From a virus: DNA of 64,000 nucleotides. Positions 36,350 to 53,054 of the stretch are shown here, piece by piece. The stretch's first letter is position 1. Every line of letters starts with the position of its first letter. The position numbers and the translations under genes are program-made. The stretch is taken from positions 124,001-188,000 of IMG/VR virus record IMGVR_UViG_3300047462_000282; one strand, 5' to 3'. The notes under the pieces are model-generated. The model saw nothing but the letters and a program-made list of their open reading frames with translations. It did not search any database and was not told the DNA's origin.

Positions 36350-37058
36350 ATGTTATTTTTACGCAAACTGCTCAAACTTCCCTCGCCAGTTGATCTTGGG
36401 TGGTCAACTACGAATGCACTTGAAATGCGTGATTTTTCGCCTCAGGGGGAAAACCTGGGAAGATTGGCACGAGACTGTTCAAAAAATGCATCCCGTCAAA
36501 TACTTTATTGCGGAAACTGCGACCGATTTTTTACAACAGAAAATTTGGTGGAGACTTAAACATCCAGTGGAAAAATTTCACTATTGGTTTGTTTCTCATT
36601 TCGTTCCTAGCCGCCGCTACCATATGTTAGACTTACGTCAACCATGCCCCAAAGGGGAGATGAACGTTGATTGCTATAAATATGGGTGGCGTGATGTAGA
36701 TGCACGAATGCTATTTGCCATGTTCAATCTATTGAATGAATTTGTAACTGGTGAACTGCCTCACTATTATTGTCCTACTGAAGAAGACGTAGCAAAAGAT
36801 CCGACCCTTAAAGAACAACGTAATGTTGTTCTTGAAGTTAATGCAATTCATCATTGGTGGAATGTAACTAGAAAAGAAGACCACCGTGCCTATGATAGCT
36901 TGCTACATCAATGGAGCCAGATACGTAAAATTTCTGGCAAAACAGAAGAGGCTGCCAGATTATTCAAAATCTTGGGCACTGTTGAAAAAGATAATGAAGA
37001 TAAAGTTGATGAAATGATTGCTCGCCTAATGAAAATCAGACGCTCTCTGTGGACCTGA
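36350..37058 (+). CDS. conserved phage protein of unknown function, frameshifted near 36445-36453
   Basis: The coding sequence appears to run in two frames. From ATG 36350 it reads MLFLRKLLKLPSPVDLGWST and reaches SPQG; after removing one G of the GGGGG run at 36445-36449 it continues KTWEDWHETVQKMHPVKYF and on to the stop at 37058, about 235 residues. Read uncorrected, the first frame stops at 36559, and the second frame would need a TTG start at 36342 or ATG at 36414 with a poor Cys-rich N-terminus. The body (HYWFVSHFVPSRRYHMLDLR, YKYGWRDVDARMLFAMFNLL) resembles a phage protein type I have seen in large phages, of unknown function. Whether the extra G is a sequencing error, a mutation or a +1 frameshift site cannot be decided here. 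Confidence 0.65.
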
Positions 37059-37071
37059 TATAGAAAGATTC

Positions 37072-38208
37072 ATGAAAATATGTTGGTTTGGTTTTCTTGG
37101 CAAGAATCATAGTTGGTCTATCGTTGCTCAAAATCTATCTAGAGAATTTATCAGAATGGGACACCATGTTGATTTATTCTCTACTAATGGTACTAAACAT
37201 TTCCCCGATGATTTAAAGCCCTATCTCAAAGGGCAAATAGAAGAAGGACAAGGAATTACAGCAGAAGATTACGTATCAAAAATTGGTTCAAAATTAGAAC
37301 AAACTTATGATATGCAGTTATCATATACTGCTCTAAGAAATTTTGACACTTATTTTATTCGAGGAAATAAAAATAGATTTGGTATTTGGAATTATGAAAC
37401 TACAGTCTTGCCAAAAGCATTCGCTAAATATGCTAGAGGAGTAGACAAAGTATTACCGTCTTCTGAATTCTCTAAAAAGATTTTTACTGATAACGGAATG
37501 TCACCGGACTTACAAGTTGTAGTACCACATGGTATCCATTTAGACCGATTTCAAAATCTGGGAAAGTATCCACTCAAGACTAAAAAGAAATACAAGATTC
37601 TTTGTAATATTGCTCAGCCCCATTTAAGAAAGAATATACCAGGTTTATTAAGCGCTTGGGCTAAAGCATTTACTAAAAATGATGATGTATGTTTAGTATT
37701 GAAGATTTCTAGAAAGGGACCCAATCCTATGTATGATGTGCCTTTTGATGAAATCTTTAATGAGTTCAGAAAGTCACATAAAGATTTGGCTGAAATCGAA
37801 ATAATCGATACGTTTATTACTGATATTGAAACTCTGTATAATGCCTGTGATGTGGTGCTTACTATGGCACACACTGAATGTTTTTGGATGCCAGGACTAG
37901 AGGCATTTGCTGCTAATAAGATAGTGATTGCACCACGTTATGGTGGGCAGCTAGATTATATGAATGATGGAAACTCAATTTTGATTGATGGTAAAATTAT
38001 TCGAGCCGATATCAGAATGCAATATTGGGAACCCTCTCCATATGCAGCATGTTTTAATCCAGATGTAGATCAATGTGCTGCTAAACTAAAAGATGTCATC
38101 AATAATTATGACGATTACCTAAAAAAGTTTTCTCCTGGAATGCAAGAAATGGCTCATAAGCTAACGTGGGAAAATGCTGCCAAACAAATTATAAGTTTAT
38201 GTAAATAA
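37072..38208 (+). CDS. glycosyltransferase, GT4-like (GT-B fold)
   Basis: A 378-residue glycosyltransferase. The N-terminal Rossmann-like domain begins MKICWFGFLGKNHSWSIVAQ with a Gly-rich loop, and the C-terminal domain carries ILCNIAQPHLRKNIPGLL and the nucleotide-sugar binding segment TECFWMPGLEAFAANKIVIA, in which E-x7-E-like spacing is typical of GT4 enzymes. It would move a sugar from a nucleotide donor to an unknown acceptor in the cytoplasm. It starts a block of sugar genes (a GT2 gene follows nine bases downstream), so it may modify virion proteins, phage DNA or a host glycan. GAAAGATT precedes the ATG. Confidence 0.85.
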   Translation: MKICWFGFLGKNHSWSIVAQNLSREFIRMGHHVDLFSTNGTKHFPDDLKPYLKGQIEEGQGITAEDYVSKIGSKLEQTYDMQLSYTALRNFDTYFIRGNKNRFGIWNYETTVLPKAFAKYARGVDKVLPSSEFSKKIFTDNGMSPDLQVVVPHGIHLDRFQNLGKYPLKTKKKYKILCNIAQPHLRKNIPGLLSAWAKAFTKNDDVCLVLKISRKGPNPMYDVPFDEIFNEFRKSHKDLAEIEIIDTFITDIETLYNACDVVLTMAHTECFWMPGLEAFAANKIVIAPRYGGQLDYMNDGNSILIDGKIIRADIRMQYWEPSPYAACFNPDVDQCAAKLKDVINNYDDYLKKFSPGMQEMAHKLTWENAAKQIISLCK

Positions 38209-38216
38209 GGATCAAT

Positions 38217-38915
38217 ATGACCGTTTTAAGTATAGTAATTCCTGTTTTTAATAAGTGGAATTTTACCAAATCCTGTTTAAATGACTTAAGTCAACTGTCT
38301 AATGAACATGAAATCATTGTCATAGACAATGCTAGCAGTGATGAAACAAATAAAGAGATGATGGAATTAGAACGCTCTTTACAAATGAAAGATACTCTAG
38401 TTTATGTAAGGAATGAAGAGAATACCTTTCATTCAAAAGCGTGCAATCAAGGATTCAGAATAGCTCTTGGTGAAAATATTCTATTCTTAAACAATGATAT
38501 CAGAGTAAGATCAAACCATGCAAATTGGACTAAATCAGTTATAGATGCATGTAACGCTACCAATGGTTTGGTAGGTCCTACTATGGGTCTATTAGATAAT
38601 GATTTGAACTTCGTAAAAGAATCAAATCAACAGCTAACCGGTAACTCATATTTAGGCGGATGGTGCATTGCTGGTAAAAGAGAAGTTTGGGACCAACTAA
38701 GAATTGGTAATACCAAGCAAATTTGGAACGAAGAGTTCCCATTCTATTTCAATGATACTGATTTGAGTTTCCGCGCACGTCAGAAAAAGGTTCCTTTGAC
38801 TGTTGTTTCATTGCCGGATGTCACTCATTTTGGTAAGATATCAGCAGCTCAAATTAATATTCCTAAGTTGTACAAAGAAGGAAGGCAAGTTTTCATTAAG
38901 AAATGGGGTAAGTAA
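38217..38915 (+). CDS. glycosyltransferase, GT2-like (GT-A fold)
   Basis: A 232-residue family 2 type enzyme. It opens with VLSIVIPVFNKWNFTKSCLN, has IIVIDNASSDET for nucleotide binding, and NILFLNNDIRV, the DxD-like metal motif region (NND). The acceptor-side segment WNEEFPFYFNDTDLSFRARQ contains the ND/ED-type catalytic acidic residues expected in this class. Ribosome binding site AAGGATC. It lies directly after the GT4-like gene and probably forms one operon with it. A LAGLIDADG gene on the opposite strand abuts its stop. Confidence 0.85.
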   Translation: MTVLSIVIPVFNKWNFTKSCLNDLSQLSNEHEIIVIDNASSDETNKEMMELERSLQMKDTLVYVRNEENTFHSKACNQGFRIALGENILFLNNDIRVRSNHANWTKSVIDACNATNGLVGPTMGLLDNDLNFVKESNQQLTGNSYLGGWCIAGKREVWDQLRIGNTKQIWNEEFPFYFNDTDLSFRARQKKVPLTVVSLPDVTHFGKISAAQINIPKLYKEGRQVFIKKWGK

Positions 38916-39629
38916 TCATTTAGCATACGTAATTTTTATATGGTGTCCGTATTTAGTTAAACGATCATCTAAATAGCGTGGTACATGAGTAGCTTTGTAT
39001 GTTTCATATAATTCATATTTCCTATCTAAAAATACAGTAGTGTTCTGATAAATCCATTCACAAAATTTTGATACCTGCCTGCTGCCACCAAAATCCAATC
39101 GGCAAGTATTACCAGTATATCTTTCTGGAAAATACATTTGAGAATTGACATCCAACTTTTTAAGTAAATGCTGTAATTGTATATTAAATTCTTTTGTCGA
39201 AACTATACTAACATTAAGTTGATCTTGGTGAATATTAATACAACCATCACCATCAAAATATCCTCTTACAAAATGTCGTATTAACTTTTCGTCTAACCAA
39301 CATGGAAAAACGATATTGAAGCTTTTTGCTCCGTGACATCCCTTTTCTTTTAAACTATTCGATAAATACCTGCCATTCAATTCTAATCTGTAAGCCCTGT
39401 ATTTGCCTTTGTTTTTAAGTTGCAAAAATGGCTCTCGTGGTCTTCCAAAGAATTTTGCGCATTTATACAGATGTTCTTTGTCTTTTTCTTGTAGTTCGAT
39501 AATAATTTGCCCAGTCTTTTCTTTGTTATATGCATCGGCATAGAAGAACCCAAGCCAATAAGCCTTTTCTTCTGTATCGATGCTGTCCATTAAATTCTGA
39601 TTTGTAGAATATTTAGTTTTGTATGCCAT
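38916..39629 (-). CDS. LAGLIDADG homing endonuclease, opposite strand
   Basis: The only convincing minus-strand gene of the window. About 237 residues from ATG 39629 (an upstream in-frame TTG at 39653 would add eight residues; neither has a good ribosome binding site). It has two LAGLIDADG-type motifs, AYWLGFFYADA near the N-terminus and LIRHFVRGYFDGDGCI in the middle, each ending in the acidic residue that binds metal at the active site. That makes it a single-chain, two-motif enzyme. It is free-standing, inserted convergently after the GT2 gene and divergently from the DNA glycosylase gene. Its orientation against the phage transcription units suggests recent or independent arrival and possibly its own promoter. 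Confidence 0.85.
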   Translation of the reverse strand: MAYKTKYSTNQNLMDSIDTEEKAYWLGFFYADAYNKEKTGQIIIELQEKDKEHLYKCAKFFGRPREPFLQLKNKGKYRAYRLELNGRYLSNSLKEKGCHGAKSFNIVFPCWLDEKLIRHFVRGYFDGDGCINIHQDQLNVSIVSTKEFNIQLQHLLKKLDVNSQMYFPERYTGNTCRLDFGGSRQVSKFCEWIYQNTTVFLDRKYELYETYKATHVPRYLDDRLTKYGHHIKITYAK

Positions 39630-39694
39630 GAAAGAATAACCAACTATGCCCAAGATTACCGAAATAAATTTTTATCAAAATCTGGAGGTGCGCT

Positions 39695-40528
39695 GTGCCA
39701 GAGGGGGTTGAAGTCAAGATTAGTGTTGATTTGATTAAACCATTTATAAAAGGTAGATTGGTAACGGGGATTGAAATATATCCAACAGGTAGATACATCA
39801 AACATCCTCTTGTTGGATTAACAGATTTTCAAAATCATATTTCGACTGGCAATATCAGTATCATCGATGTTGCTTCGAAAGGTAAATTTATGTATTGGGA
39901 ATTTACTAATTTCCATTACATGATGTGTACTTTTGGTATGACTGGTCAATGGTCTCCTTTCAAAGGAAAACACCCCTGTCTAGCTATTAAGTATCTAAAT
40001 GATAACAAAGAGACATCCGTTTACTTCAATGATGCTCGCCATTTTGGCACTATTAAATTCGTCAACACATTTGCTCGCCTAAATGCTAAGAGGGCAGAGT
40101 TGGGGTGGGATCCATTAAGTGATGAAATGAACGAGCCATGGATGAATTATGTCTTTAATGAATGTAAGAAAACTAACAAATGCATTGGTGAATTATTATT
40201 GAATCAAAGAGTATTTGCTGGAGTTGGTAACTACATCCGTGCCGAGGCGTTATATCTAGCAAAGATATCTCCATGGCGAATCGCCAATGTGATATCAAAA
40301 GAGCAAATGCACACTTTATGTCAGGCTTTAGTTGATGTTATGAGTGAATCATACAAACATCGTGGGGCAACGATTCGTACTTACAAAGATGCTTTTGGAG
40401 AATCAGGTGAGTATGCCGGTCATTTTAAGGTGTATGGTCGACAAACAGATCCGCTCGGTAATCCTATTTTAAGAAAATTGACACCAGATAAAAGAACTAT
40501 GCATTGGTGTCCAGCTGTTCAGCTATGA
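39695..40528 (+). CDS. Fpg/Nei-type DNA glycosylase with degenerate zinc finger
   Basis: A 277-residue base-excision repair enzyme. GTG start at 39695 with TGGAGGTG upstream; the start gives MPEGVEVKI, in which the Pro after Met is the catalytic nucleophile and the next Glu is conserved. VASKGKFMYW carries the conserved Lys, and LLLNQRVFAGVGNYIRAEAL is the helix-two-turn-helix. The C-terminal finger region reads VYGRQTDPLGNPILRKLT then RTMHWCPAVQ: the finger Arg is kept but the first three of four zinc cysteines are missing. It therefore resembles zincless-finger Nei proteins. It would remove oxidised bases and cut at abasic sites, protecting phage DNA. Confidence 0.9.
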   Translation: MPEGVEVKISVDLIKPFIKGRLVTGIEIYPTGRYIKHPLVGLTDFQNHISTGNISIIDVASKGKFMYWEFTNFHYMMCTFGMTGQWSPFKGKHPCLAIKYLNDNKETSVYFNDARHFGTIKFVNTFARLNAKRAELGWDPLSDEMNEPWMNYVFNECKKTNKCIGELLLNQRVFAGVGNYIRAEALYLAKISPWRIANVISKEQMHTLCQALVDVMSESYKHRGATIRTYKDAFGESGEYAGHFKVYGRQTDPLGNPILRKLTPDKRTMHWCPAVQL

Positions 40529-40538
40529 GGTATTTATC

Positions 40539-41528
40539 ATGTCATTGTCTACAAAAATTCTATTAATTCTTGGCGCTATTCTTGTTTTCTGCAGCATGGG
40601 ATTCATTATCTTTAAGCAGGTAGAAAATTCAAATAGACAGTTAGCAATTGAAACTCAAATCACTCAGCAAAAACAACTTATTGATGGAATAGTTCGTAGC
40701 CAAAGTCAATGGGCAACCAAAGCTGATATGGATAAGTTTATTACCGATCAGGGCGTAAATCTTAAAGCCATTCAAGATGACTTGGATAAACTTAATGCAA
40801 ATGTTACTGCCGCCAATCATGTTGTAATCGTCAGCAATGGTCAAACGGGAAATAATCTTCCAAGCACTGGGACTGGTGCAACTAATCCAAACCCAACGCA
40901 AACTACCTGTCCAGACGGCACTTCCTGCGATCCAAACGGATATCAAAAGAAGGAACAAGACCTAGCCTTGAATGAAGATTTTGGAACTTCTAAAGTACCC
41001 ATTGGTACTGTTGGATTCAGTGCTTGGCAAAAGGCTCCTTGGAATGTTGATATCAAGCCAAGAGAATATGATCTTACCAATGTAATTGGAACTGATGAGA
41101 ACCAAAAGGTATACGTCTATAATAAATTTAATGTAAAGGTAGATGGAAAAACTTATGATGTTCCAATCAAAACAGCTAATACTGTACAAGAATATCCGAC
41201 CGCTAAATTCAGTTTTTGGAATCCAAGATTGTTTTTGGGTGTCGAAGGTGGAATCGGAGTCAATCCGGTTAGAGGTGAGTTCTCTCCAAGCTTGAGCGTT
41301 GGCATCATGTCGTACGGTCAATACAAAACCAATCCAGATTTTTCTGTTTTAGAAGTCGGTGTGGCTTATGGTACAGTTAGCCAAAGACCACAAATAGTGG
41401 TTACACCGGTTGCTTACAATGTAGGCAAACATATTCCACTAATGAGCAACATGTACATTGGACCAACTGTAAGTGCTGGAACTGATGGTAACGTAACCTT
41501 TGGAGTAGGATTAAGGGTGGGACTATGA
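40539..41528 (+). CDS. membrane-anchored protein: TM helix, coiled coil, beta-rich domain
   Basis: A 329-residue protein. Residues ~6-26 (ILLILGAILVFCSMGFIIFK) form one membrane helix, likely with the rest outside the cytoplasm. A Gln-rich helical or coiled-coil segment follows to ~residue 90, then a Thr/Asn/Gly/Pro linker containing two Cys (CPDGTSC). The final ~180 residues are a beta-rich domain with repeated Gly-containing strands (LFLGVEGGIGVNPVRGEFSP ... VTFGVGLRVGL) and a terminal hydrophobic strand, similar in style to outer-membrane barrel proteins. I do not know the function; spanin-like or superinfection roles are possibilities only. GAGGT precedes the ATG and the stop overlaps the next gene (ATGA). 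Confidence 0.7.
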   Translation: MSLSTKILLILGAILVFCSMGFIIFKQVENSNRQLAIETQITQQKQLIDGIVRSQSQWATKADMDKFITDQGVNLKAIQDDLDKLNANVTAANHVVIVSNGQTGNNLPSTGTGATNPNPTQTTCPDGTSCDPNGYQKKEQDLALNEDFGTSKVPIGTVGFSAWQKAPWNVDIKPREYDLTNVIGTDENQKVYVYNKFNVKVDGKTYDVPIKTANTVQEYPTAKFSFWNPRLFLGVEGGIGVNPVRGEFSPSLSVGIMSYGQYKTNPDFSVLEVGVAYGTVSQRPQIVVTPVAYNVGKHIPLMSNMYIGPTVSAGTDGNVTFGVGLRVGL

Positions 41529-42358
41529 TTTATCTTTTAACTTTAACTTGGAATGCTGAAGACAAACTAACTAAGCTTAAGGAATCTCTTCTTCCAGCTT
41601 TAGATGGATTGGATTATGCTTGGTTTATCAAAGACAATGCCTCTAAAGACAATACCGTCGCTGTTGCATCTACTTGGGGAGATAAAGTCAAGGTAATAGC
41701 TTATCAGAACAATCATCAAAATTTTGCTGCTGGCATGAATCATTTGTTCAATGCGGCATCTCCTCAAGATAATGATTATGTAATGTTGCTCAATAATGAT
41801 ATTATCTTTAATGATAAAGACTCAATCAAAAAGATGGTTGAAGTTATTAAGAATGATGATTCTGTAGGAGTAGTTGGCGCACGATTGTTATATACAGATA
41901 CAGATGTTTTACAACATGGTGGAGTCGTATTCAATAATGGTCATAGAATGCCCATTCATTTTAGAGCTGGTCAAAAGAGCGACGCAAATGCAGAGAAGAA
42001 TAGATTGTTTCAAGTGGTAACTGGTGCAGTTGCTTTGACTAAGGCAGAGTATTTCAAAAATACCTGGGAGAAAAACCCCTCTGGTATTAAAGGGATGGAT
42101 GAAGGTTTTCATTGGGCATTTGACGATGTGGATATGTGCTTGTCCATCGCTCACAATATGAATAAGAAGATTGTATATTGTGGTGAAACCAGCATCTTCC
42201 ATGAAGAGAGTGCCTCCCTCAAAAAGAATCCAGCCAATCGTTTATTTCTTAATTCCAATGTACAAAGACTTAAGAGCAAATGGGAATCTAAATATAAATT
42301 AGATCAAAATGATTATACAGCAGATTCCAGACATAATCTTTATCGAAAGAAAGAATAA
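41525..42358 (+). CDS. glycosyltransferase, GT2-like
   Basis: A 277-residue family 2 type glycosyltransferase. MIYLLTLTWNAEDKLTKLKE opens the fold, FIKDNASKDNTV is the nucleotide-binding loop, and YVMLLNNDIIFNDKDS contains the metal-binding acidic motif. GVVGARLLYTDTDVLQHGGV and HWAFDDVDMCLSIAHNM match rhamnosyltransferase-like members of the group. It overlaps the genes on both sides (ATGA and TAATG), and the next gene is an RmlB-like dehydratase, so a deoxysugar such as one derived from dTDP-4-keto-6-deoxyglucose is a reasonable guess for the donor; that is inference from context. Confidence 0.85.
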   Translation: MIYLLTLTWNAEDKLTKLKESLLPALDGLDYAWFIKDNASKDNTVAVASTWGDKVKVIAYQNNHQNFAAGMNHLFNAASPQDNDYVMLLNNDIIFNDKDSIKKMVEVIKNDDSVGVVGARLLYTDTDVLQHGGVVFNNGHRMPIHFRAGQKSDANAEKNRLFQVVTGAVALTKAEYFKNTWEKNPSGIKGMDEGFHWAFDDVDMCLSIAHNMNKKIVYCGETSIFHEESASLKKNPANRLFLNSNVQRLKSKWESKYKLDQNDYTADSRHNLYRKKE

Positions 42359-43317
42359 TGACTGAAAAAAAGAAAGTTCTTATTACTGGCTCTTGTGGTT
42401 TCATCTTTGGTAATTTTCTTAGACGTGCCATTCATGAAAGACAGCCTTATAATTTTGTTAGTATTGATAGAGTTAGTGGTAATGCTAATGCACTTTACCA
42501 AAATAAGAATCATGAATTTCATGTAGCTGATATTAGAGATCAGCACGTTATAGATATCCTCTTTCAATTTGAAAGACCAGATATTGTTATTCATGGGGCT
42601 GCCGAGAGCTTTGTGGACTATTCTTTAACTGATCCTAATTCTTTTGTTACTTCCAATATACTGGGAACTCAGGTAATTATCAACGCCTGCCTCAAACATG
42701 GTGTTGAGCGCCTAATTTATGTGTCCACTGACGAAGTATATGGTCAGTTAACCAAAGAGACAGATGCCCCTTGGACGGAAGAATCTCCGCTTAATCCTAG
42801 GAATCCTTATTCAGCCTCCAAGGCTGCTGGGGAGTTGATGGTAAAAGCAGCCCATGCTTCGCATGGATTAATTTATAACATTACCCGAAGCTCTAATAAC
42901 TACGGACCCCGCCAGACGCCCGAGAAGCTCATTCCTAAGGCGATAAAGTGCATCCTGCATGACCAAAAGATTCCCATTTACGGACAAGGGCTTCAAATTA
43001 GGGATTGGACTCATGTTTTTGATAATTGTGCTGCCATTTTGACAGTTCTAAACAATGGCAAGCCAAACGAAACTTATAACATTTCAGCCAACCAAGAGTT
43101 TCCCAACATTGAAGTAATTCAAAAAATTTGCAATGCGATGGGTACGGGACATGATTTGATTTCTTTCATTGATGACCCCCGTGGCGGACATGATTTTAGG
43201 TATTCAATTAATTCTTCCAAGATTAGAGAATTAGGATGGAAGCCTTCATACAAATTTAAAGAAGGAATTATTGATACTGTTGAATGGTACAAGACTAATA
43301 AATACGTGCTGAAGTGA
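42358..43317 (+). CDS. NAD-dependent epimerase/dehydratase, RmlB-like
   Basis: A 319-residue short-chain dehydrogenase/reductase of the extended type. The NAD-binding motif is TGSCGFIFG (residues ~10-18), followed by the acidic residue region SIDRVS. The active site has YVSTDEVYG (Thr plus Asp/Glu as in dTDP-glucose 4,6-dehydratases) and NPYSASKAAGE (Tyr151 and Lys155). SNNYGPRQTPEKLIP is the substrate-domain motif of RmlB-like enzymes. It probably makes a 4-keto-6-deoxy sugar nucleotide for the adjacent glycosyltransferases. Start overlaps the upstream stop (TAATG). Confidence 0.88.
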   Translation: MTEKKKVLITGSCGFIFGNFLRRAIHERQPYNFVSIDRVSGNANALYQNKNHEFHVADIRDQHVIDILFQFERPDIVIHGAAESFVDYSLTDPNSFVTSNILGTQVIINACLKHGVERLIYVSTDEVYGQLTKETDAPWTEESPLNPRNPYSASKAAGELMVKAAHASHGLIYNITRSSNNYGPRQTPEKLIPKAIKCILHDQKIPIYGQGLQIRDWTHVFDNCAAILTVLNNGKPNETYNISANQEFPNIEVIQKICNAMGTGHDLISFIDDPRGGHDFRYSINSSKIRELGWKPSYKFKEGIIDTVEWYKTNKYVLK

Positions 43318-43341
43318 TATAAGTAGGCGCAGGAGATAAGA

Positions 43342-44706
43342 ATGCCAGCAACGTCCGTAACAGAAGAAGTTAAACAAGAAGAAGTAGTTGATGATATTTC
43401 ATCACAAGAAGTTAAGGCTGCCTCAGATCAAGTTGATCAAAGTAAATTAGCAGCACTAAAAGCCAAAAGTCAAGCCAAGCAACAGGAGAGTAAGATGGCA
43501 GCAAAAATAGTTTCGAAGAAAGATAGAAGCATAGTCCTTGGAGTATTAGGTTCAGGTCAAGCCGGATCTAGATTAGCTGAGGCATTTTATAAGTTAGGTT
43601 ATGATGCAGTTGCCGTAAATACTGCCATGCAAGATTTGAAGTTCATTGATATTCCAGATTCTAATAAATTGCTTCTTGAGTACGGTTTGGGTGGCGCTGC
43701 CAAAGAAGTCGAGATTGGTAAAGCTGCTGCTGAGTCTCATCGTGGCGAGATTACTCAATTGATCAACGACAAATTGGCTAGCTCCCAAGTCAACGTATTG
43801 TGTCTTAGCTTAGGTGGTGGTTCTGGTGCGGGTTCCTGTGAGACCCTTGTAGATATAATGTCCAGTCTTGGTAAACCATTGGTTGTAATGACTGTTCTAC
43901 CAATGGATACAGAGGACGCCCAGACTAAGGCTAATGCTTTAGAAACTCTTTCTAAGCTAGCAAAACTTACCCAATCTAAAAAGGTTAACAATCTAATTGT
44001 TGTTGACAATGCTAAGATTGAAGCAATTTATCATGATGTAAATCAAGTTGATTTTTATGGTATTGCTAATAAGGCAATTGTTGAAACCATTGATGTGTTC
44101 AATACACTTTCCTCCATGCCATCGTCGGTCAAAGGACTCGATCCGATGGAATGGGGAAAGCTATTCACCGATGGTGAAGGTCTCACGATTTATGGTGAGC
44201 TTACTGTCGATAATTTTTCTGAGGACACCGCTATTGCAGAGGCTGTCGTTAATAACTTGAACGGCAACTTGCTTGCAGGTGGTTTTGACCTCAAGCAATC
44301 TAGATATGTCGGAATTATCATTGCTGCAAACAAAGATGTTTGGGCAAAGATTCCAAGCTCTAGTATTACTTATGCTATGGCAATGGTTAATGATCAATGC
44401 GGAACTCCTAAAGGAGTTTTTAAGGGAATCTATACTGTAGAGACTCCTGACCCAGTTGTCAAGGTCTATTCTATGTTCTCTGGACTTGGTTTGCCAGACT
44501 CTCGCGTTACTCAACTAAAGAAGGATGCGCAAGAGCACATGCAAACTGTCAAGGGCAAGGATGACGCCCGTAACTTAAATCTACAACTAGAGACTGGTAC
44601 GAATGAAACTATTTCGGCTGCTCAGAAAATCAAAGAAAAGATTTCTCAGAAGTCTTCTGCTTTCGGCAAGTTAGTTGGTGGAGTGGTTGATAGGAGAAAG
44701 CCATGA
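43342..44706 (+). CDS. tubulin/FtsZ-like GTPase
   Basis: A 454-residue protein. A ~60-residue Lys/Gln/Glu-rich N-terminal extension precedes a Rossmann GTPase domain with GVLGSGQAGSRLAEAFYKLG (residues ~67 onward) and the tubulin/FtsZ signature in the form GGGSGAG at residues 158-164. The segment NQVDFYG (residues 234-240) aligns with the T7 synergy loop of FtsZ (NxDFxD); the first Asp is kept, the second acidic position is Gly. Phage tubulins position DNA or the phage nucleus in some jumbo phages; that role is not shown here. AGGAGAT precedes the ATG. The stop overlaps an Sm-like gene (ATGA), suggesting co-expression. Confidence 0.82.
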   Translation: MPATSVTEEVKQEEVVDDISSQEVKAASDQVDQSKLAALKAKSQAKQQESKMAAKIVSKKDRSIVLGVLGSGQAGSRLAEAFYKLGYDAVAVNTAMQDLKFIDIPDSNKLLLEYGLGGAAKEVEIGKAAAESHRGEITQLINDKLASSQVNVLCLSLGGGSGAGSCETLVDIMSSLGKPLVVMTVLPMDTEDAQTKANALETLSKLAKLTQSKKVNNLIVVDNAKIEAIYHDVNQVDFYGIANKAIVETIDVFNTLSSMPSSVKGLDPMEWGKLFTDGEGLTIYGELTVDNFSEDTAIAEAVVNNLNGNLLAGGFDLKQSRYVGIIIAANKDVWAKIPSSSITYAMAMVNDQCGTPKGVFKGIYTVETPDPVVKVYSMFSGLGLPDSRVTQLKKDAQEHMQTVKGKDDARNLNLQLETGTNETISAAQKIKEKISQKSSAFGKLVGGVVDRRKP

Positions 44707-44954
44707 AAACGCATATCAACGACTACTTAAAAGAGTTAGTTGGTAAAGAAATTGAAGTAGTTCTTCAGGGAAGATCTATAATTGGTATTCTGCAACCAGT
44801 AGAAGGTTGGTTTATTCGTCTTAAACCAACTGTAAAATGGCTAGAAGATCAAATTGTTCATGTTTATGCAATTAGCGCAATAAAAGTATATACTGAACGT
44901 TCTATTAGAGATAATGATGATTTAGATCAGTGTGAAGATTCTGGAGTAAGATAA
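44703..44954 (+). CDS. Sm/Lsm-like small protein
   Basis: An 83-residue protein. LVGKEIEVVLQGRSIIGILQ fits the Sm1 pattern (Gly, alternating hydrophobics, then GxL), and QIVHVYAISAIKVYT fits the short Sm2 strands. Sm-like proteins form rings and often bind RNA, as Hfq does, but some bind other partners. The gene overlaps both the tubulin-like gene and the His-rich gene. Assignment is by pattern only; an alternative is an unrelated small beta barrel. Confidence 0.55.
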   Translation: MKTHINDYLKELVGKEIEVVLQGRSIIGILQPVEGWFIRLKPTVKWLEDQIVHVYAISAIKVYTERSIRDNDDLDQCEDSGVR

Positions 44955-45259
44955 TGACTACCACTAAGAAAAAAGCTAAACCAATGTTCAGCCTGAAGAC
45001 CTATCTCTTAAAGAAGGCACAAAAGAAGCTTGCTAAGTTAGAGTTTCGCGCCGAAAAGCGTGAAGTTAAGAAGCCTGGTAAGAAACATGTTCACACTCAT
45101 GACCATGCTCACGAGCATGATCACGAACATGAGCATGCGGAGGCTGCCACTCCTGAAAGTGTGTTTTTCGAAACTCCTGCCGAGCAAGTAGCCGAATTGT
45201 TTGATGAACAGACACTTGAAGATCCTGAAGCTAATGAAGTCTTAGGGGAGGCTCAATGA
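44954..45259 (+). CDS. His-rich, probably metal-binding small protein
   Basis: A 101-residue protein. A basic N-terminal half (KAKPMFSLKTYLLKKAQKKL) is followed by a run of alternating His with Asp/Glu/Ala between residues ~38 and 58 (ten or more His; HDHAHEHDHEHEH), then an acidic tail (ESVFFETPAEQVAELFDE). Such His/Asp/Glu runs bind zinc, nickel or copper in known chaperones and transporters. No enzymatic domain was seen. It overlaps the Sm-like gene (TAATG) and the lysozyme gene (ATGA). Confidence 0.7.
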   Translation: MTTTKKKAKPMFSLKTYLLKKAQKKLAKLEFRAEKREVKKPGKKHVHTHDHAHEHDHEHEHAEAATPESVFFETPAEQVAELFDEQTLEDPEANEVLGEAQ

Positions 45260-46083
45260 CTGTAAGAGGCGTAGACGTTTCCTCTGTTCAGGGAGATGTT
45301 GATTTCAACTGGTTGGTTAAGCAAGGTATACAATTCGTTATTATAAAGTGCTATACTGGAAATGATGGAAAAGATCCTTTCTATGAGAAGAATTTAGCAG
45401 GCGCTGCGGCAGCTGGATTGAAGTTTGGAATATACCATTTCATTTATCCGCTGCCATCTGATCCTGCTCATCCCGGACGCGATCCTAAGGCTCAAGCCGC
45501 TTTGCATTATAAAGCAGCAGGAGATCAAAAGATAGTCTGTTGTGATTTAGAATGGCCAGAACCACAAGATTGGTTAAAGTGGCATGTAGATGGTCAATTC
45601 ATTGCTAAATGGACATTAGAGTATTTAGCAGAATATGAAAGGCTTAGTGGTGTCAGACCATTAATCTATACATATTATTTCTATGCTCAAGCATGTAATC
45701 TTCCACCACAGTTTGCACAATATAAATTGTGGGATGCTAACTTTGAACATCCACCAAAGGTTCCAAAGCCTTGGACTGATTGGGTCATGCAACAAGAAGG
45801 CGGGGGCACTACCGGTGTAACCATGAGACTTCCTAATGGAATTCCTGTTGATACCGACTTGGCTAAAGATTTATCTCTATGGGGTGATGTTCCTGCCGCC
45901 GCTGTAGCTCCAACTCCAGTCCAAACTCCAGTGGTAGTTGCACCAGAGCCAGTTGCTCCTGCTGTAGTTCCTGAACCAGCACCAACACCTGTTGCTCCAG
46001 CTCTTCCAACTCCAGCTACTGGCAGTATTGTAGCCAACATAGTACAATTCATCCTTAAACTTTTGGGTATTAAGACTCAATAA
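45256..46083 (+). CDS. GH25 lysozyme (endolysin-like) with Pro/Ala linker and amphipathic C-terminus
   Basis: A 275-residue muramidase. GVDVSSVQGDVDF at the N-terminus and IVCCDLEWPEP (Asp97, Glu99) carry the acidic residues of glycosyl hydrolase family 25, which cuts the beta-1,4 bond between MurNAc and GlcNAc. RPLIYTYYFYAQA and LWDANFEHPP are further family strands. From residue ~213 a ~45-residue linker of repeated Pro/Ala/Val leads to a final amphipathic hydrophobic helix (IVANIVQFILKLLGIKTQ), an arrangement suited to membrane association. It may be the lysis enzyme or a tail-associated lysozyme; no holin was recognised beside it. GGGGAGG gives a strong ribosome binding site. Confidence 0.88.
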   Translation: MTVRGVDVSSVQGDVDFNWLVKQGIQFVIIKCYTGNDGKDPFYEKNLAGAAAAGLKFGIYHFIYPLPSDPAHPGRDPKAQAALHYKAAGDQKIVCCDLEWPEPQDWLKWHVDGQFIAKWTLEYLAEYERLSGVRPLIYTYYFYAQACNLPPQFAQYKLWDANFEHPPKVPKPWTDWVMQQEGGGTTGVTMRLPNGIPVDTDLAKDLSLWGDVPAAAVAPTPVQTPVVVAPEPVAPAVVPEPAPTPVAPALPTPATGSIVANIVQFILKLLGIKTQ

Positions 46084-46098
46084 AATGTCGAGAAAAAG

Positions 46099-46123
46099 GT
46101 ACTAGTTATATATGATCTAGTAC
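46099..46123 (+). terminator. hairpin between lysozyme and helicase genes
   Basis: GTACTAG pairs with CTAGTAC around an 11-base AT-rich loop. It lies in the 58-base gap after the lysozyme gene. There is no T run after it, so it could equally be an operator, an RNA processing site or a weak terminator. Confidence 0.35.
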
Positions 46124-46141
46124 ACTTAGCTCGGCAGGGTC

Positions 46142-47638
46142 ATGTCTAAAATCGTAATCAAGGGTAACACCTCTCAAATCATAGAAGAGTCAGATGTAGC
46201 GCATGTTTTAGCGCTCGATAAGCACCTATCCTTTTACATTCAAGGAGCAGAACATACTGCTGCCTTCAAGGGATTCATCAATCGAGATGGTGACTTTGTT
46301 AAATGGGACGGCTTTAAAAAGTTATTAACTCCTACTCTACGGTTCCCAACTGGATTGGTTGAGAGGGTTAAAGACTTTTATAAAGAAGCTGGAAAAGAAA
46401 TTGAGATTATCGATAAGCGCCCTACCAAATCAACTGGCACGGAAAGAAACATATTAGATAATCTTAAAAAATTATACAAGGATCCGTACCCATATCAATT
46501 AGAAATTCTTGATGTCATTGACAAAAACGACAGAGGGATTATTAAAGTAGCTACAGGTGGAGGCAAGAGTTTAATTGCAGCACTTATTGCTGCAAAATTA
46601 GGAAAGAAAACTATTATTTATGTTATTGGTAAAGATTTACTATACCAATTTCATGATTTTCTTTCTGTAGCATTTGACGAAAAGATTGGTATTATAGGTG
46701 ACGGTAAATGTGATATTCACGATATCAACGTTGCCAGTATTTGGACAGTAGGTCAAGCCATCGGCATGCAGAAGAAGGAAATTCTGCTAGAGAACGATGA
46801 TGACGAAGAGTCTGTTGGCAAAGATAAGTATGCCAGCATTGTCAAAATGATGAAGGAAACTAAGGTTCACATCATTGATGAATGCCACATGTCAGCATGT
46901 GAAACCATTCAACAGATTTTCAAGCACTCAGCCCCAGAACACCTTTACGGATTAAGTGGTAGTCCTTGGCGCGATGATGGTGCCGATTTAATGATCGAAT
47001 CCATTCTTGGCAAATATATTGTTAATATTTCAGCTTCCTATTTGATTGAGCGTGACTATCTAGCACAGCCTCTTATTAGATTTAGAGTAGTTCCAACTTA
47101 TCCAGATGTATTAGAAAGAGTTTATCCTTCTGTATACAAAAAATATGTAGTTGAAAATGACGTCCGTAATGGTCTCATTTTAGACGCAGCTAAGACTATG
47201 GTAGACAAGGGATACCAAACACTTGTTCTATTCAGTAGTTTAAAGCACGGTAAGATTCTGTATGATCTATTCAAGCAGCACATGAGATGTGCCATATTGG
47301 ATGGAAGTAATACAAAAGAAGAACGAGAACAAGTTAAAAAAGATTTAATGGAGCACAAAATTGATTGTGTTCTAGCTTCCAAGATTTTTGATATAGGGGT
47401 AGACATCCCCAGTTTGTCGGGTCTTGTCATCGCATGCGGCGGCAAGTCTACTGTCAAAGCACTCCAACGCGTAGGACGAGTTATTAGAAAGTATCCGGGC
47501 AAAAAGTTTGCGGTGATTGTAGATTTTATTGATCAAGCTCCTTTCCTAGATAATCATTCTAAGACTAGATACAGAATATATAAATCAGAAGAAGGGTTTG
47601 ATGTGAGTTATCCATTAGCCAAAAAGAAGAAGAAATAA
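46142..47638 (+). CDS. SF2 DNA/RNA helicase, UvsW-like
   Basis: A 498-residue helicase. After a ~100-residue N-terminal region comes YPYQLEILDVI (Q-like motif), Walker A ATGGGKS (about residues 138-144), DECH as motif II near residue 246, LSGSPWRDD as motif III, LASKIFDIGVDIPSL as motif V, and QRVGRVIRK as motif VI near residue 442. This complete motif set places it in superfamily 2 with T4 UvsW and related proteins, which remodel branched DNA and help recombination-dependent replication. It opens the replication block. The C-terminus ends in a Lys run. CAGGG lies before the ATG. Confidence 0.88.
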   Translation: MSKIVIKGNTSQIIEESDVAHVLALDKHLSFYIQGAEHTAAFKGFINRDGDFVKWDGFKKLLTPTLRFPTGLVERVKDFYKEAGKEIEIIDKRPTKSTGTERNILDNLKKLYKDPYPYQLEILDVIDKNDRGIIKVATGGGKSLIAALIAAKLGKKTIIYVIGKDLLYQFHDFLSVAFDEKIGIIGDGKCDIHDINVASIWTVGQAIGMQKKEILLENDDDEESVGKDKYASIVKMMKETKVHIIDECHMSACETIQQIFKHSAPEHLYGLSGSPWRDDGADLMIESILGKYIVNISASYLIERDYLAQPLIRFRVVPTYPDVLERVYPSVYKKYVVENDVRNGLILDAAKTMVDKGYQTLVLFSSLKHGKILYDLFKQHMRCAILDGSNTKEEREQVKKDLMEHKIDCVLASKIFDIGVDIPSLSGLVIACGGKSTVKALQRVGRVIRKYPGKKFAVIVDFIDQAPFLDNHSKTRYRIYKSEEGFDVSYPLAKKKKK

Positions 47639-47645
47639 GGGCTGT

Positions 47646-48234
47646 TTGTTTTATTTGTATATTTATAAAAATCTAATCAATGGTATGATTTACATTGGGC
47701 AGACTAAAAATATTGAAATAAGGGATCAAAGACATTGCAATGATAAAGTAATGAGAATTGATAGAGCTATAAGAAAATACGGACGACAAAATTTTCTATT
47801 AAGTATAATATTAACATCAAAAAACTGAAGAACAGATAGTTTTCGCTGAAATTGATTGGATTGCACGTGCCCGTTTGATATTAGGCTCTGATATGGTTTA
47901 CAATATAGCTAATGGCGGATCTAATGGCTGGAATGGATTGAAGCACTCTGAAAAATCTCGTAAAAAAATGAGTGAGACTCATAAAGGAATGCATGTTGGT
48001 AATAAAAATATTATGTTTGGCAAACAGCACAAATCTACAAGTAAAGATTTAATATCTCAAAATAGAAAAGGAAAATCTGTTGGAGAAGATCGCCCAACAG
48101 CAATTCTTACGAAAGAGTTAGTAGAATTAATTAGGACTGATAAAAGATCTGAAAGAACTCTTGCTAAATTATATGGCGTTTCTAGATCAACTATTAATAG
48201 TATAAAACGTGGTATAAATTGGAAATCATCATGA
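47646..48234 (+). pseudogene. GIY-YIG homing endonuclease, frameshifted at 47819-47824
   Basis: The first frame (TTG start 47646, AAGGG upstream) gives FYLYIYKNLINGMIYIGQT, the GIY-YIG core, and runs into TGA at 47826. Removing one A of the six-A run at 47819-47824 joins it to TEEQIVFAEIDWIARARLIL and MVYNIANGG, the rest of the catalytic module. NUMOD3-like DNA-binding repeats follow (KHSEKSRKKMSETHKG) and a helix-turn-helix near the end (LAKLYGVSRSTINSIKRG). The complete protein would have about 195 residues. The stop overlaps the next gene as ATGA, so the ancestral gene fitted the operon well. Broken by mutation, by sequencing error, or rescued by slippage. Confidence 0.82.
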
Positions 48235-48836
48235 CTAATAAAAATAAAGAAAGCACAGGCGGAGAGCTAACTGATTACCCTAATGAGAAGTACCGCCAGT
48301 TCTTCGAGAAATTTGCCGAGATAGAAACAATGGATGTGAAAGATTGGAAACCAGTTCACATCCTTGCTTATTTCTGCAAAAAGTATCAAGCTCAATATAC
48401 AACTAAATACCAATTCAAATTCAATAGTCCTTCCCCTGCCAAGTGTTTCGAAGTATTTCAAGTCAAAAGACTAGCTATGCTTCTAAGTAGTAACCCCAAT
48501 ATCCTAAAAGAATATATTGATTGGATTTATGAGACCAAGGTGGTGCAAGCTAAGAGGCGTTTGACTTCTATTTCTTTCATGACACATGAAGGTGTAGTGC
48601 AAGACTATAAGATGAACATTTTGTTGAAGGGTAAAAAGAATCTTAATGTAGATCGCTCTACACCGCTACCAGATGTCTATAAGAAAGCCTTTGCCGAAGC
48701 TGGCACAGTAATCAATACATATGGCGAGTTAGCATTCGTATCTCAAATGGATCCAATGCCTGTCGCATTATCTGTGGCTTTCCAGAAGATAGTTGCTGAG
48801 GGATTTGATGTAGAGGTATTAGGGAGGATCGTATGA
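48231..48836 (+). CDS. replication-block protein of unknown function
   Basis: A 201-residue protein. I chose ATG 48231, which overlaps the GIY-YIG stop, rather than an in-frame TTG at 48219. It is mixed helical with HILAYFCKKYQAQYTTKYQF, FEVFQVKRLAMLLSSNPNIL and a C-terminal helix (MPVALSVAFQKIVAEGFDVE). No domain was recognised. It sits directly upstream of an Sm-like gene, a DnaC-like loader and the replicative helicase, with ATGA overlap to the next gene, so a role as a replisome accessory protein is likely but unproven. Confidence 0.7.
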   Translation: MTNKNKESTGGELTDYPNEKYRQFFEKFAEIETMDVKDWKPVHILAYFCKKYQAQYTTKYQFKFNSPSPAKCFEVFQVKRLAMLLSSNPNILKEYIDWIYETKVVQAKRRLTSISFMTHEGVVQDYKMNILLKGKKNLNVDRSTPLPDVYKKAFAEAGTVINTYGELAFVSQMDPMPVALSVAFQKIVAEGFDVEVLGRIV

Positions 48837-49408
48837 TTCCAGAGACTGGACAGCACGTTAAATGTTTGCTTAGAAATGGTGCAATAGCAGAAGGTATTGT
48901 TGAAGAATGGTTCGGCAATTATGTTAAACTAATATCTTTAGATCATGGAAGTGTTTTAATTATACATCATCCAGACCAAGATATAATGCTTACTAAGATT
49001 GTTTTGGATGATGATATTGCGGAGGATTACAAGGAGCCTGCCGAGTCTATTACTGGGGTTCCTGCGCCATCTGACGAAGATCCTCCAAGTGGTGCTTTTA
49101 TATCCTATAAAGATGGTGGAATAACTTGGACCAATCCTGAAGAACTTCAGGCTGAATTTGAAGAAGTATTAGAACAACCAAGTAGTGATCCTAATCGCAT
49201 TAAAAGGCTAGCTGATCTTAGAATTATGATGGCTGAAGCTGATAGAAAGATCATTGAAGACAAACTAAAAGACCATAATATAAATGAAGTGAAGAAGGTA
49301 GAATATGGATATCCCGGATTTTTCAAGAAGTCAAGCGCTCAACAACATCCCGCCCCGCAAACTCAAGGAGGCACTGGACGCCGTAAGCAACGACCAGTCG
49401 ATGAATGA
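48833..49408 (+). CDS. Sm-like N-domain protein overlapping the helicase loader gene
   Basis: A 191-residue protein. The first ~60 residues (GQHVKCLLRNGAIAEGIVEE, NYVKLISLDHGSVLIIHHP) have the strand pattern of an Sm-like or related small beta barrel. A long acidic, helical region follows (EELQAEFEEVLEQPSSDPNR, RIMMAEADRKIIEDKLKDHN), and the tail is basic and Gln/Pro-rich (QQHPAPQTQGGTGRRKQRP). The last 104 bases also encode the N-terminus of the loader in another frame. ATGA overlap with the upstream gene. Function unknown; context says DNA replication. Confidence 0.65.
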   Translation: MIPETGQHVKCLLRNGAIAEGIVEEWFGNYVKLISLDHGSVLIIHHPDQDIMLTKIVLDDDIAEDYKEPAESITGVPAPSDEDPPSGAFISYKDGGITWTNPEELQAEFEEVLEQPSSDPNRIKRLADLRIMMAEADRKIIEDKLKDHNINEVKKVEYGYPGFFKKSSAQQHPAPQTQGGTGRRKQRPVDE

Positions 49409-50009
49409 TGACGAGAAGCACGTCAGACTAATTGCCATCAATCGATATGCGGAAAGTAATATTCCTCTTGAATATTGGACTCTCAAGATGGATCGAGACT
49501 TTGTAGGCGACTCTCGTTTGCTCGCCAAATACAACGAATATATTGCTGATCTAAAAAACTCTTATATTACTGGATCTTCTATTTGTTTTGCTGGTGGTCA
49601 TGGTCTAGGTAAAACCATGACAATAACTGCCGTCTTGAAAAAAGCAAGTCAGAAAGGTTTTACCTGCCTGTATACCACACTGAGTGATATAGTATCTGTC
49701 CTTACGCAAGCTTCTGGTGAAGACCGCTACATAGCTCGCCGTGAACTCGCTTTGGTGGACTTCTTGGCAATCGATGAATTCGATCCTCGCTTCATGTCTT
49801 CAGAGAATGCAGCCAATCTATATGCTCGTAGTTTGGAAAGTGTCTTTAGGACTCGTAGCCAAAACAAAATTCCTACATTGATGTGTACTAATAGTCCCAA
49901 TGTAGTATCCAGTTTTCATGGTCCTCTCAAAGAGAGCATTGATAGTTTGATGAAGGGCTATTTGAAAATATTCCCAGTAATGGGTGAAGATTTTAGAAAG
50001 AGGAAATAA
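49305..50009 (+). CDS. DnaC/IstB-like helicase loader ATPase
   Basis: A 234-residue AAA+ type ATPase. Walker A is GGHGLGKT (about residues 97-104), Walker B is FLAIDEFD (about 152-159), and sensor-1 region is IPTLMCTNSPN. The N-terminal ~90 residues (KLKEALDAVSNDQSMNDDEK ... ESNIPLEYWTLKM) match the helical helicase-binding part of DnaC-like proteins. It would load the DnaB-like helicase encoded two genes downstream. ATG 49305 has AAGAAGG at suitable distance and is preferred over ATG 49401, which has none, despite the 104-base overlap with the upstream gene. Confidence 0.85.
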   Translation: MDIPDFSRSQALNNIPPRKLKEALDAVSNDQSMNDDEKHVRLIAINRYAESNIPLEYWTLKMDRDFVGDSRLLAKYNEYIADLKNSYITGSSICFAGGHGLGKTMTITAVLKKASQKGFTCLYTTLSDIVSVLTQASGEDRYIARRELALVDFLAIDEFDPRFMSSENAANLYARSLESVFRTRSQNKIPTLMCTNSPNVVSSFHGPLKESIDSLMKGYLKIFPVMGEDFRKRK

Positions 50010-50398
50010 TGTATAGTCCTAAAAAAGAAATATTAGTGAAATCTCTGTGTAGATTATCTGCCGCCTTGTGCTCTTATACTAAGCAGCCTTGTGACTGTAA
50101 GTTCATGAGGGAAGGTGATGATGTTGCTAGGGGCTCTGAAAATGGTTCGGGTTGCCCGGAAGCCATGGTAGCTGCCGAATTAATTTCACACATGACTCAG
50201 CAAGAATTTGATGCTATTGCTAAAAGAGCGGGCATCATTCCTGATTCTGATGTTGTTATTGATGCAGTTGCACTGAAGAAGCATTTTCAGGAAGAGCTTT
50301 GGAAAAAAGAACAAGAAGATGCTAAACTATTGATTCCTATTAAAAGAAATAGAAAGTCAGCATATGTGCCAGGCAAATTGCCAAAGGGAACTCTATGA
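50009..50398 (+). CDS. small Cys-containing protein of the replication block
   Basis: A 129-residue protein overlapped at both ends by its neighbours (TAATG upstream, ATGA downstream). It contains a cluster of cysteines in the first half (SLCRL, LCSYTKQPCDCKFM, GSGCPEAM) that could bind zinc or an iron-sulfur cluster, followed by a helical middle and a basic tail (PIKRNRKSAYVPGKLPKG). No family was recognised. Between the loader and the helicase genes a replication role is expected but not shown. Confidence 0.7.
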   Translation: MYSPKKEILVKSLCRLSAALCSYTKQPCDCKFMREGDDVARGSENGSGCPEAMVAAELISHMTQQEFDAIAKRAGIIPDSDVVIDAVALKKHFQEELWKKEQEDAKLLIPIKRNRKSAYVPGKLPKGTL

Positions 50399-51798
50399 GT
50401 AATGAGTTAGATCTAGTTATCCTAAAGACACTAGTCACAAATAAGAAGCATGCATTGGATTTCGTAAATGAATGCGATCCAAAGTTGTTTGTGCCCGAGG
50501 TATGGAATTTTGCCAACCTAGCAGTTAGCTATGTCCGTACTTATAAGGAAGTTCCAACTCAAAGAGTCATGGTTGAGAAGTTGTCTAAAGGCAACAATGA
50601 AAAACTAATTGATCATGTTAAAAAGATGTGGGAACAACTTGATCGAATCAGTTATGATGATAGAGAATATAAGCATGATTTAGAGAAGATTAAGAAAAGG
50701 TATGCTGAGAAACAAATTCTAACTATGAAGGACAGCTTCTCTAAGTTAGAGGCTGGTAGCATGGATGTTTCTAGAGCTATTACAGATATGCAAAAGACGG
50801 TTCAGTCTATTAAGTCATTGAGCCAAGTAAAAGCATATGAACGTAAGACTCTAAAAGAAGCTGTTCCTATTTTTAGAGAAGAGTATAATGCTAAGTTAGA
50901 AGATCCCAAGTTTGACCAAGGTATTACTACAGGTTATTCCTACCTAGATCGTGTAACGGATGGTTTGCGTCCAGGAGAGTTGTTGCTCATTGGTGGCGAA
51001 TCTGGTGGTGGTAAGTCCATGTTATTGATGAACATGGCAATTCAGATTTGGATGCAGAATAATAATATTGATATGACCAGTAATTTTGGTCCTGGCAATA
51101 GCGTGTTGTATTTCTCTTTAGAAATGCCATTCAAGCCTTGCTTGAATCGTGTGTTAGCTAGAATGTCAGCTAGCCCATCTAAGCAGATTAGAAATGCGAC
51201 GCTTGGTCCAGACGATGCCGGTAAGCTAAAGAAGTCTTTAAAGTTCATCAATAATTATCCATACGAATTTGAAATTATCGATATTCCTAGAGGCGCTACC
51301 ATGGAAAGCCTGGAGCTAATCTACGAAGAAGCTAAAGCTAAATTCGATCCTAAGATAATTGTTATCGACTATCTAGGATTGATGGATTACGATGGCACGG
51401 ATATGGAAGACTGGCTGAAGCTAGGTAAGATTGCAGAGAAGATTCATGAATTTGCAAGAGTTCATAACTGCATCGTTCTAAGCGCAGTTCAGTTGAATCG
51501 TACCAAGGGTGCCAAGGAAGAGGATAAGATTGGATTGCATCGTATTGGTCGTTCCGCTTTGATTATGCAGAATGCCAACATTGCAGTTCAAATCGAAACC
51601 CGCCCTAATGAAAAAAGCTATCCAGATATGAAGTACCATTTGATCAAGAATCGTGATGGTGAATTGGGTGAAGGCAGAATTATTAAAAATCTAGCTTGCG
51701 GCACTCTACTGGACGATAAGGTAGAGGAAGATCCAACGACCTTTGAGATGCGTGATATAGATGACATATCTACGAAAATCGAATTGTTGGACATATGA
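50395..51798 (+). CDS. replicative DNA helicase, DnaB-like
   Basis: A 467-residue RecA-fold helicase. The N-terminal ~150 residues are helical, as in the DnaB/T4 gp41 N-terminal domain. TGYSYLDRVTDGLRPGELLL leads into Walker A GGESGGGKS (about residues 200-208); VLYFSLEMP is motif 1a; IIVIDYLGLMD near residue 320 is Walker B; IVLSAVQLNR is motif 3 and the HRIGRSALIMQNAN segment includes the sensor region. It would unwind DNA at the fork, loaded by the DnaC-like protein. The TGA stop overlaps an ATG that starts a decayed HNH gene. Confidence 0.92.
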   Translation: MSNELDLVILKTLVTNKKHALDFVNECDPKLFVPEVWNFANLAVSYVRTYKEVPTQRVMVEKLSKGNNEKLIDHVKKMWEQLDRISYDDREYKHDLEKIKKRYAEKQILTMKDSFSKLEAGSMDVSRAITDMQKTVQSIKSLSQVKAYERKTLKEAVPIFREEYNAKLEDPKFDQGITTGYSYLDRVTDGLRPGELLLIGGESGGGKSMLLMNMAIQIWMQNNNIDMTSNFGPGNSVLYFSLEMPFKPCLNRVLARMSASPSKQIRNATLGPDDAGKLKKSLKFINNYPYEFEIIDIPRGATMESLELIYEEAKAKFDPKIIVIDYLGLMDYDGTDMEDWLKLGKIAEKIHEFARVHNCIVLSAVQLNRTKGAKEEDKIGLHRIGRSALIMQNANIAVQIETRPNEKSYPDMKYHLIKNRDGELGEGRIIKNLACGTLLDDKVEEDPTTFEMRDIDDISTKIELLDI

Positions 51799-52428
51799 AA
51801 AAAAACTTGTATAAAATGCGGGCAGGACAAGAACACTAATGATGGCTATTTTAGTTTTATAAAAAAGACGCAGAAGTATGATAATACATGTAAGGAATGC
51901 AATAAAGCATATCAAGAAAATTATCGTTCTGAACATAAGAAAGAACTGCTCGATAAAAAGAAAGAATACTACAAGGATAATAGGAGCACGATCCGCCAAA
52001 AACAAAAGGTACACCGAAAAAAGAATATAGACTCATATAAAGAAAAAGATCATAAGTATTATTCTTTAAATAGGAAAAAGATAATTGCGCAAAAATTAGT
52101 ATACAAAAGAAAGAAGGCACAAGTAGATGCCGTGTTTGCCCTGCGAAACACAGTCTCCAGGGCTATTGCTCTAATGCTCTCCTCACGAAATGGTACGAAA
52201 CATCGAAAATCTTGTTTGCAGTATTTAGATTATTCTATAGAGCAATTGAAAAATCACATTGAAGCCCAATTTGAGTCATGGATGAATTGGAATAATCGTG
52301 GGACTTATATAGCCGATCACTGGGACGATAACGACCCTACGACATGGACTTGGCAGCTAGATCATATTATTCCGCAATCAGAATTACCGTACTCATCTAT
52401 GGAGGATGAGAACTTTAGAATTTGTTAA
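51795..52428 (+). pseudogene. decayed HNH endonuclease: frameshifted start and missing C-terminus
   Basis: ATG 51795 overlaps the helicase stop but enters a 14-codon frame ended by TAA. Removing one A from the eight-A run at 51798-51805 opens a long frame: MKKTCIKCGQ, a second Cys pair (TCKECNKAYQENY), a basic linker, FALRNTVSRAIALML, and the HNH core WQLDHIIPQSELPYSSMEDE. It then stops at FRIC, exactly where the intact relative at 674-1276 continues with WSLGNLRPL. The C-terminal ~30 residues are therefore lost, replaced by part of another endonuclease gene. This explains the stretch of more than 300 bases between the helicase gene and the next frame. Unlikely to be active. Confidence 0.85.
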
Positions 52429-53054
52429 CAATAAAGATAAAATCATAATACAATGCAAAAAACATGGTGCATTTGAGCAAACTATAGCATCGCATTTATT
52501 TGGCTGTGGCTGTCCACAATGCGGAAGTGAAACTAGAGCAATTAAAAATACTTTAAGCACACAAGAATTTATTATAATGGCTGAGCAAAAACACAATGGT
52601 AAATATAATTACTCAACTACTATTTACCACAATGCAAAAGAGCCAATAGAAATAGTATGCAAAAAACATGGAAGATTTTATCAAAAACCAAACGATCATT
52701 TAGATGGTCATGGATGTCCGAAGTGTAATAGGGTCATCTCTTCTATTGAATCTAAATGGCTAGATTTTATTGGCATACCGGATGATAAACAGCATAGATC
52801 GGTAACAATTAAGATAGGTAAAATAACATTTAGAGTAGATGGATTTAATCAAAATACTAAAACAGTTTATGAGTTTTATGGAGATTTTTGGCACGGCAAC
52901 CCGGTATTTTATCCTCCAAATGGCTATTGCAAAGTAACTAAAAAAAACTTTTGGAGAAATGTATTCTAATACTTTGAATAAAGAAAAAATATTAAAAGAG
53001 AATGGGTATGTTGTTATTAGTATTTGGGAAAATGATTTTAGGAAAATGTTATGA
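52406..53054 (+). pseudogene. EDxHD/Vsr-like homing endonuclease with zinc repeats, truncated and frameshifted
   Basis: Two repeats of the form CKKHGxFxQ ... GCPxC (IIIQCKKHGAFEQT ... GCGCPQCG; IVCKKHGRFYQKPNDHLDG ... GCPKCN) are typical DNA-binding modules in this group. A Vsr-like nuclease domain follows: SIESKWLDFIGIPDD, FRVDGFNQNTKTVYEFYGDF, WHGNP. The frame stops at 52969, but removing one A of the eight-A run at 52940-52947 gives TFGEMYSNTLNKEKILKENG and VVISIWENDF up to TGA 53052-53054, the expected family end. The N-terminus is also cut: coding begins within the strand before the first repeat (EFVNNKDK), fused to the HNH remnant. The corrected stop overlaps the next start as ATGA. Confidence 0.85.

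Follow-up and report, generated by a model that had tools for sequence, protein, structure and literature searches.

Four genes within a single stretch of phage DNA change reading frame at or beside a homopolymer run, which raises the question of whether these breaks are errors, a form of regulated expression, or real mutations. The stretch (the window, 64 kb) corresponds to bases 124001-188000 of an IMG/VR phage record of 193,526 bases (193.5 kb), from an uncultured large phage (G000). An earlier sequence-only reading had pointed to a G5 run at 36445-36449, an A6 run at 47819-47824, and A8 runs at 51798-51805 and 52940-52947. All four runs are present at these positions, and the ORF translations shift frame at or beside each of them. 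We consider it about 90% probable that the breaks are real inactivating mutations, three of them reflecting the decay of homing endonucleases by replication slippage and deletion, and the fourth a separate indel in another type of gene. The features concerned are the following.

36350-37058, + strand: accessory phage gene split into two frames (intact single-frame homologs lie upstream of the same glycosyltransferase)
36443-36453, + strand: frame-change site including G5, net five bases shorter than in relatives (spacing between flanking conserved codons)
47646-48234, + strand: putative free-standing GIY-YIG/NUMOD3 homing endonuclease gene, frame-broken (Pfam; site comparison)
47819-47824, + strand: A6 run where the GIY-YIG frame changes, net +1 relative to locus L212 (alignment)
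51795-52428, + strand: remnant of an endonuclease VII-like HNH gene, frame-broken after the start codon and without the C-terminal NLRPL (PHROG 1035/2340; homologs at the site)
51798-51805, + strand: A8 run immediately after the HNH start codon (sequence; comparison with locus L176)
52406-53053, + strand: remnant of a DUF723/DUF4379 zinc-repeat endonuclease with a Vsr-like catalytic domain, first half of repeat 1 lost and frame broken before the last segment (Pfam; PHROG; relatives)
52415-52428, + strand: fusion junction between the HNH and DUF723 remnants (where one homology ends and the other begins)
52940-52947, + strand: A8 run where the DUF723 frame changes (5-7 A, in frame, in relatives sharing the motif)

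Homopolymer length is a common type of sequencing or assembly error, and such an error could have added a base to genes that the phage carries intact. The longest runs in the window are indeed found at two of the four sites, as the two A8 runs are its only runs of at least 8 bases and both lie at breaks. However, a second contig, IMGVR_UViG_3300049215_000223 (G001, 178.7 kb), overlaps G000 across 103.7 kb (G000 89779-193526) with 0 mismatches and 0 gaps. The whole window falls inside this overlap and all four runs recur in G001, which makes random assembly error at the runs very unlikely. G001 extends past the end of G000 and the contig ends differ between the two, so they were presumably assembled separately; nevertheless, G001 may derive from a related sample sequenced on the same platform, which would leave its independence from G000 incomplete. 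Reads carrying one base fewer at the runs had been proposed as the decisive observation against real breaks; we approximated this through the second assembly alone, where the breaks stand.

The core genes of the window provide a second line of evidence. Two syntenic relatives, G002 (42 kb) and G003 (55 kb), share about 66-76% DNA identity with the window across most matched stretches, G002 coverage starting after the first 14.7 kb of the window, and further relatives (L-numbered loci) were found by scans with neighbouring core genes. Compared with the G002 and G003 proteins, only the 36350 gene, the GIY-YIG gene, and one antisense ORF are matched in two frames, and all other core genes covered keep a single frame. 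The 26 A/T runs of at least 6 bases in core genes are likewise unbroken and include three A7 runs, in agreement with the earlier remark that long runs elsewhere remain in frame. Together with the truncation of the HNH and DUF723 genes and a net loss of five bases at the G5 site, none of which is a homopolymer error, these observations make sequencing or assembly error improbable.

The record carries several other features. A TubZ/FtsZ-like tubulin homolog is encoded at 43342-44706 (Pfam Tubulin 2.9e-14, TubZ-like_C 3.6e-7), with plasmid RepX (4ei7) as its best solved relative, and a phage-encoded formamidopyrimidine-DNA glycosylase homolog at 39695-40528. A collagen-like GPTGP repeat protein occupies 62718-64000 and runs past the window end. 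Long internal repeats of about 73-92% identity, with many off-diagonal matches in the contig comparison, occur at L034:10200-15400 (G000 about 90200-95400).

The first of the three endonuclease genes is an insertion at the junction of a helicase gene and the gene that follows it. Its first piece matches Pfam GIY-YIG (E=1.3e-7) and its second NUMOD3 (8e-7), both above the cut-off, so that the GIY-YIG catalytic domain and the NUMOD3 DNA-binding motif follow in this order, one on each side of the break. The frame is not continuous, the shift at A6 separating the GIY-YIG region from a conserved AEIDWI segment. In L212 this junction, with the helicase gene before it and the same next gene after it, is occupied by an intact ortholog (61% identical). 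Between a common TCA and GAAATTGA, L212 has 27 bases and the window 28, a net +1 located at or near the A6 run. In G002 the site is empty, the helicase and the next gene being adjacent. The start codon is TTG in the window and ATG in L212; apart from this change and the run, the window copy has no lesion, which counts against long-standing decay and suggests that the break may be very recent. A GIY-YIG gene of G003 (L018:9598-10224) contains an in-frame TAA near the position of the window frame change.

The HNH gene directly follows a DnaB-like helicase gene. Open endonuclease VII-like genes occur at the same DnaB site in L100, L101, L104, and L176, the first two running off the end of the compared stretch and the last two serving as intact examples; in G002 the site is empty. 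The N-terminal zinc-finger-like cysteines and the LDHIIPQ core are present in the window copy, as judged from PHROG 1035/2340 and from comparison with L100, L104, and L176. The L176 ortholog, 60% identical, starts with GTG-AAA-AAA, relative to which the window has one additional base at A8, and this run after the ATG leaves the start codon in a different frame from the remainder of the gene. In the window, homology stops at MEDENFR, whereas most examined relatives go on with an NLRP segment, and L176 continues beyond this stopping point (KKCWALENLRPLSAKQNHLDGVNRTRHK). Judged from these alignments, the gene is broken twice, by the A8 frame change and by the loss of its C-terminus. Since the HNH frame is in register with DnaB past its TGA, we also considered readthrough from the helicase gene, and rejected it because the intact relatives at this site use their own GTG or ATG start. 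Elsewhere in G000, an HNH gene at 23353-24030 (L031:3353-4030) is broken by an internal deletion and a frame change between similar A-rich stretches.

The third gene matches Pfam DUF723 and DUF4379, as well as PHROG 681/559 (E about 1e-25), and contains the DUF723/DUF4379 repeats and the FYGDFWHG motif common to its relatives. At about 30 DUF723/Vsr-like endonuclease loci the frame is open across the run, and in relatives with the FYGDFWHG motif it continues as far as a terminal IWE-type motif. Where these relatives also have a KK(T/S)(F/Y)G segment, the homologous run consists of 5-7 A and is in frame, with A7 in L129, L143, and L152 compared to A8 (+1) in the window. The N-terminal half of the first repeat is also missing: the two-repeat relatives L126 and L129 begin with a half-repeat HxxxYDYS that is absent from the window copy, and its frame, broken at A8, does not stay open to the IWE motif. 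The HNH homology ends at ...MEDENFR and the DUF723 homology starts at ...EFVNNKDK in a different frame, as a single deletion spanning these two neighbouring genes could have produced. Both A8 runs thus sit in this collapsed pair.

Relative to intact homologs, all three endonuclease frames show a net +1 at an A run, and the two that are fused are truncated as well. The claim of one extra base therefore holds at A6 and at both A8 runs but lacks support at G5, where the window is five bases shorter than the alignable relatives. The further claim that removing one base restores a full frame does not hold for the HNH gene, whose frame ends before the NLRPL segment, or for the DUF723 gene, in which half of the first zinc repeat is absent. 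In the related phages whose run lengths were compared, the homologs are open at the homologous positions or differently broken. The HNH gene in L083 is also broken, and among the many lesions of the DUF723 gene in L099 is a frame change at this very A run. Of the explanations listed initially, real decay of selfish genes is backed by three observations: the breaks recur in a second assembly, the same sites hold intact orthologs in other phages, and these and neighbouring endonuclease genes carry unrelated lesions.

Breaks are concentrated in the endonuclease genes of the window, affecting 3 of 7 compared to 1 of 48 other genes (Fisher p = 0.005). A/T runs of at least 6 bases are about 7 times denser in these genes, but only about 5% of 20-base intervals within them wholly hold such a run; it is therefore unlikely that all three breaks lie at runs by chance, and replication slippage is the likely mutation. 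We propose that putative free-standing homing endonuclease genes, inserted at gene junctions and dispensable to the phage, are decaying, and that the +1 changes would have arisen by DNA polymerase slippage on the A runs that are dense in these A-rich, lysine-rich genes. Weak selection on endonucleases once they are inserted, as in the homing cycle, may have allowed these changes to persist. The assignment of homing to all three genes is putative, being made from their sequences and sites.

Programmed transcriptional slippage or +1 recoding, which would keep the expression of toxic nucleases low, predicts out-of-frame runs conserved in diverged homologs. No homolog with a retained out-of-frame run was seen, which disfavours this explanation. 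In some systems a polymerase could slip on a run as long as A8, and T7 RNA polymerase slips on short runs (PMC6260861). Bacterial (E. coli) RNA polymerase, however, requires no fewer than 7 T, and for A a still longer run, which makes A6 and G5 unsuitable (PMC6260861). The phage encodes a Sigma-70-like factor with regions 2 and 4 (54272-54901), which suggests that it uses the host polymerase. In addition, the restored HNH frame would still be without its NLRPL segment. Long poly(A) runs do rescue frames in endosymbionts (PMC5009743). Taken together, programmed slippage or recoding is very improbable here. In the DUF723/Vsr-like gene, slippage at A8 could still yield some protein with an intact catalytic domain and so maintain a low endonuclease activity, which we regard as very doubtful.

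Mononucleotide runs do change length during replication, and reversible on/off switching of the nuclease genes through run length (phase variation) would also produce frames broken at runs. Nevertheless, runs of 5-8 bases are short for switching, the two assemblies show no length difference, and truncation affects two of the three endonuclease genes as well, making this explanation extremely improbable.

The 36350 gene differs from the other three, and its presence among the broken genes counts against a single explanation for all four. All four genes are really broken, but the initial description fits only three of them, and decay of selfish genes does not cover this one, which is not an endonuclease. 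Pfam and PHROG searches gave no assignment for its product. Nine aligned relatives have one open frame, closely followed by the same glycosyltransferase (at this locus L075 and L077 look identical, and one of the two was aligned). Between the conserved codons flanking the G5 break, the alignable relatives have 15 bases and the window 10, and a single 5-base deletion is a simpler account than the less probable combination of an extra G and two lost codons. The only relative in the phage collection, LR745208, is distant (33.6%), and its shorter N-terminus gave no placement of the indel. The shared direction of the four frame changes, which had been presented as a common feature, is weak evidence: four like changes arise with a 1-in-8 chance, and one of them, the net -5 at G5, probably arose differently. 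We therefore dropped directional bias as an argument.

In several other relatives no copy was found next to the glycosyltransferase, suggesting that the gene is probably dispensable. A rough rate test gave 7 unique residues in the window copy compared to 10 and 8 in two relatives; this lack of excess indicates that the break is probably recent or that the gene still partly works. An in-frame ATG at 36414 may start a shortened protein. In the reading we favor, a small indel unconnected with the endonuclease decay would have broken this accessory gene; it was probably a deletion of 5 bases, and probably a recent one.

These loci clearly illustrate that, across uncultured large phages, the same putative homing site can hold an intact gene, a broken gene, or none. 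They also suggest that a frameshift in an endonuclease gene of a metagenomic phage can reflect real decay, not error or recoding. Studies of homing-cycle turnover, the principle of which is already established, could make use of the helicase and DnaB junctions.

As in the poly(A) frameshifts that transcriptional slippage rescues in insect endosymbionts (cited in PMC5009743), the frame changes at an A run of an A-rich gene, whereas here the runs are short, the out-of-frame run is unconserved, and further truncations are present. The homing cycle, in which elements invade, become fixed, degenerate, and are lost (Goddard and Burt; review PMC1654191), was modelled for introns and inteins, unlike the free-standing, putative homing genes described here; nevertheless, these related phages include examples of all three states, intact, broken, and empty, at the same sites. 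The Vibrio phage ICP1 belongs to another phage group, and our data are metagenomic, without isolates. Its homing genes are reported to be unstable, with frameshifts, variable stops, and in-frame deletions (PMC10448857), and as in our window they adjoin essential genes, vary among relatives, and are broken by frameshifts, stops, or deletions. The nuclease classes here are GIY-YIG/NUMOD3, endonuclease VII-like HNH, and DUF723/Vsr-like, and DUF723-type repeats occur in ICP1 too (PMC10448857).
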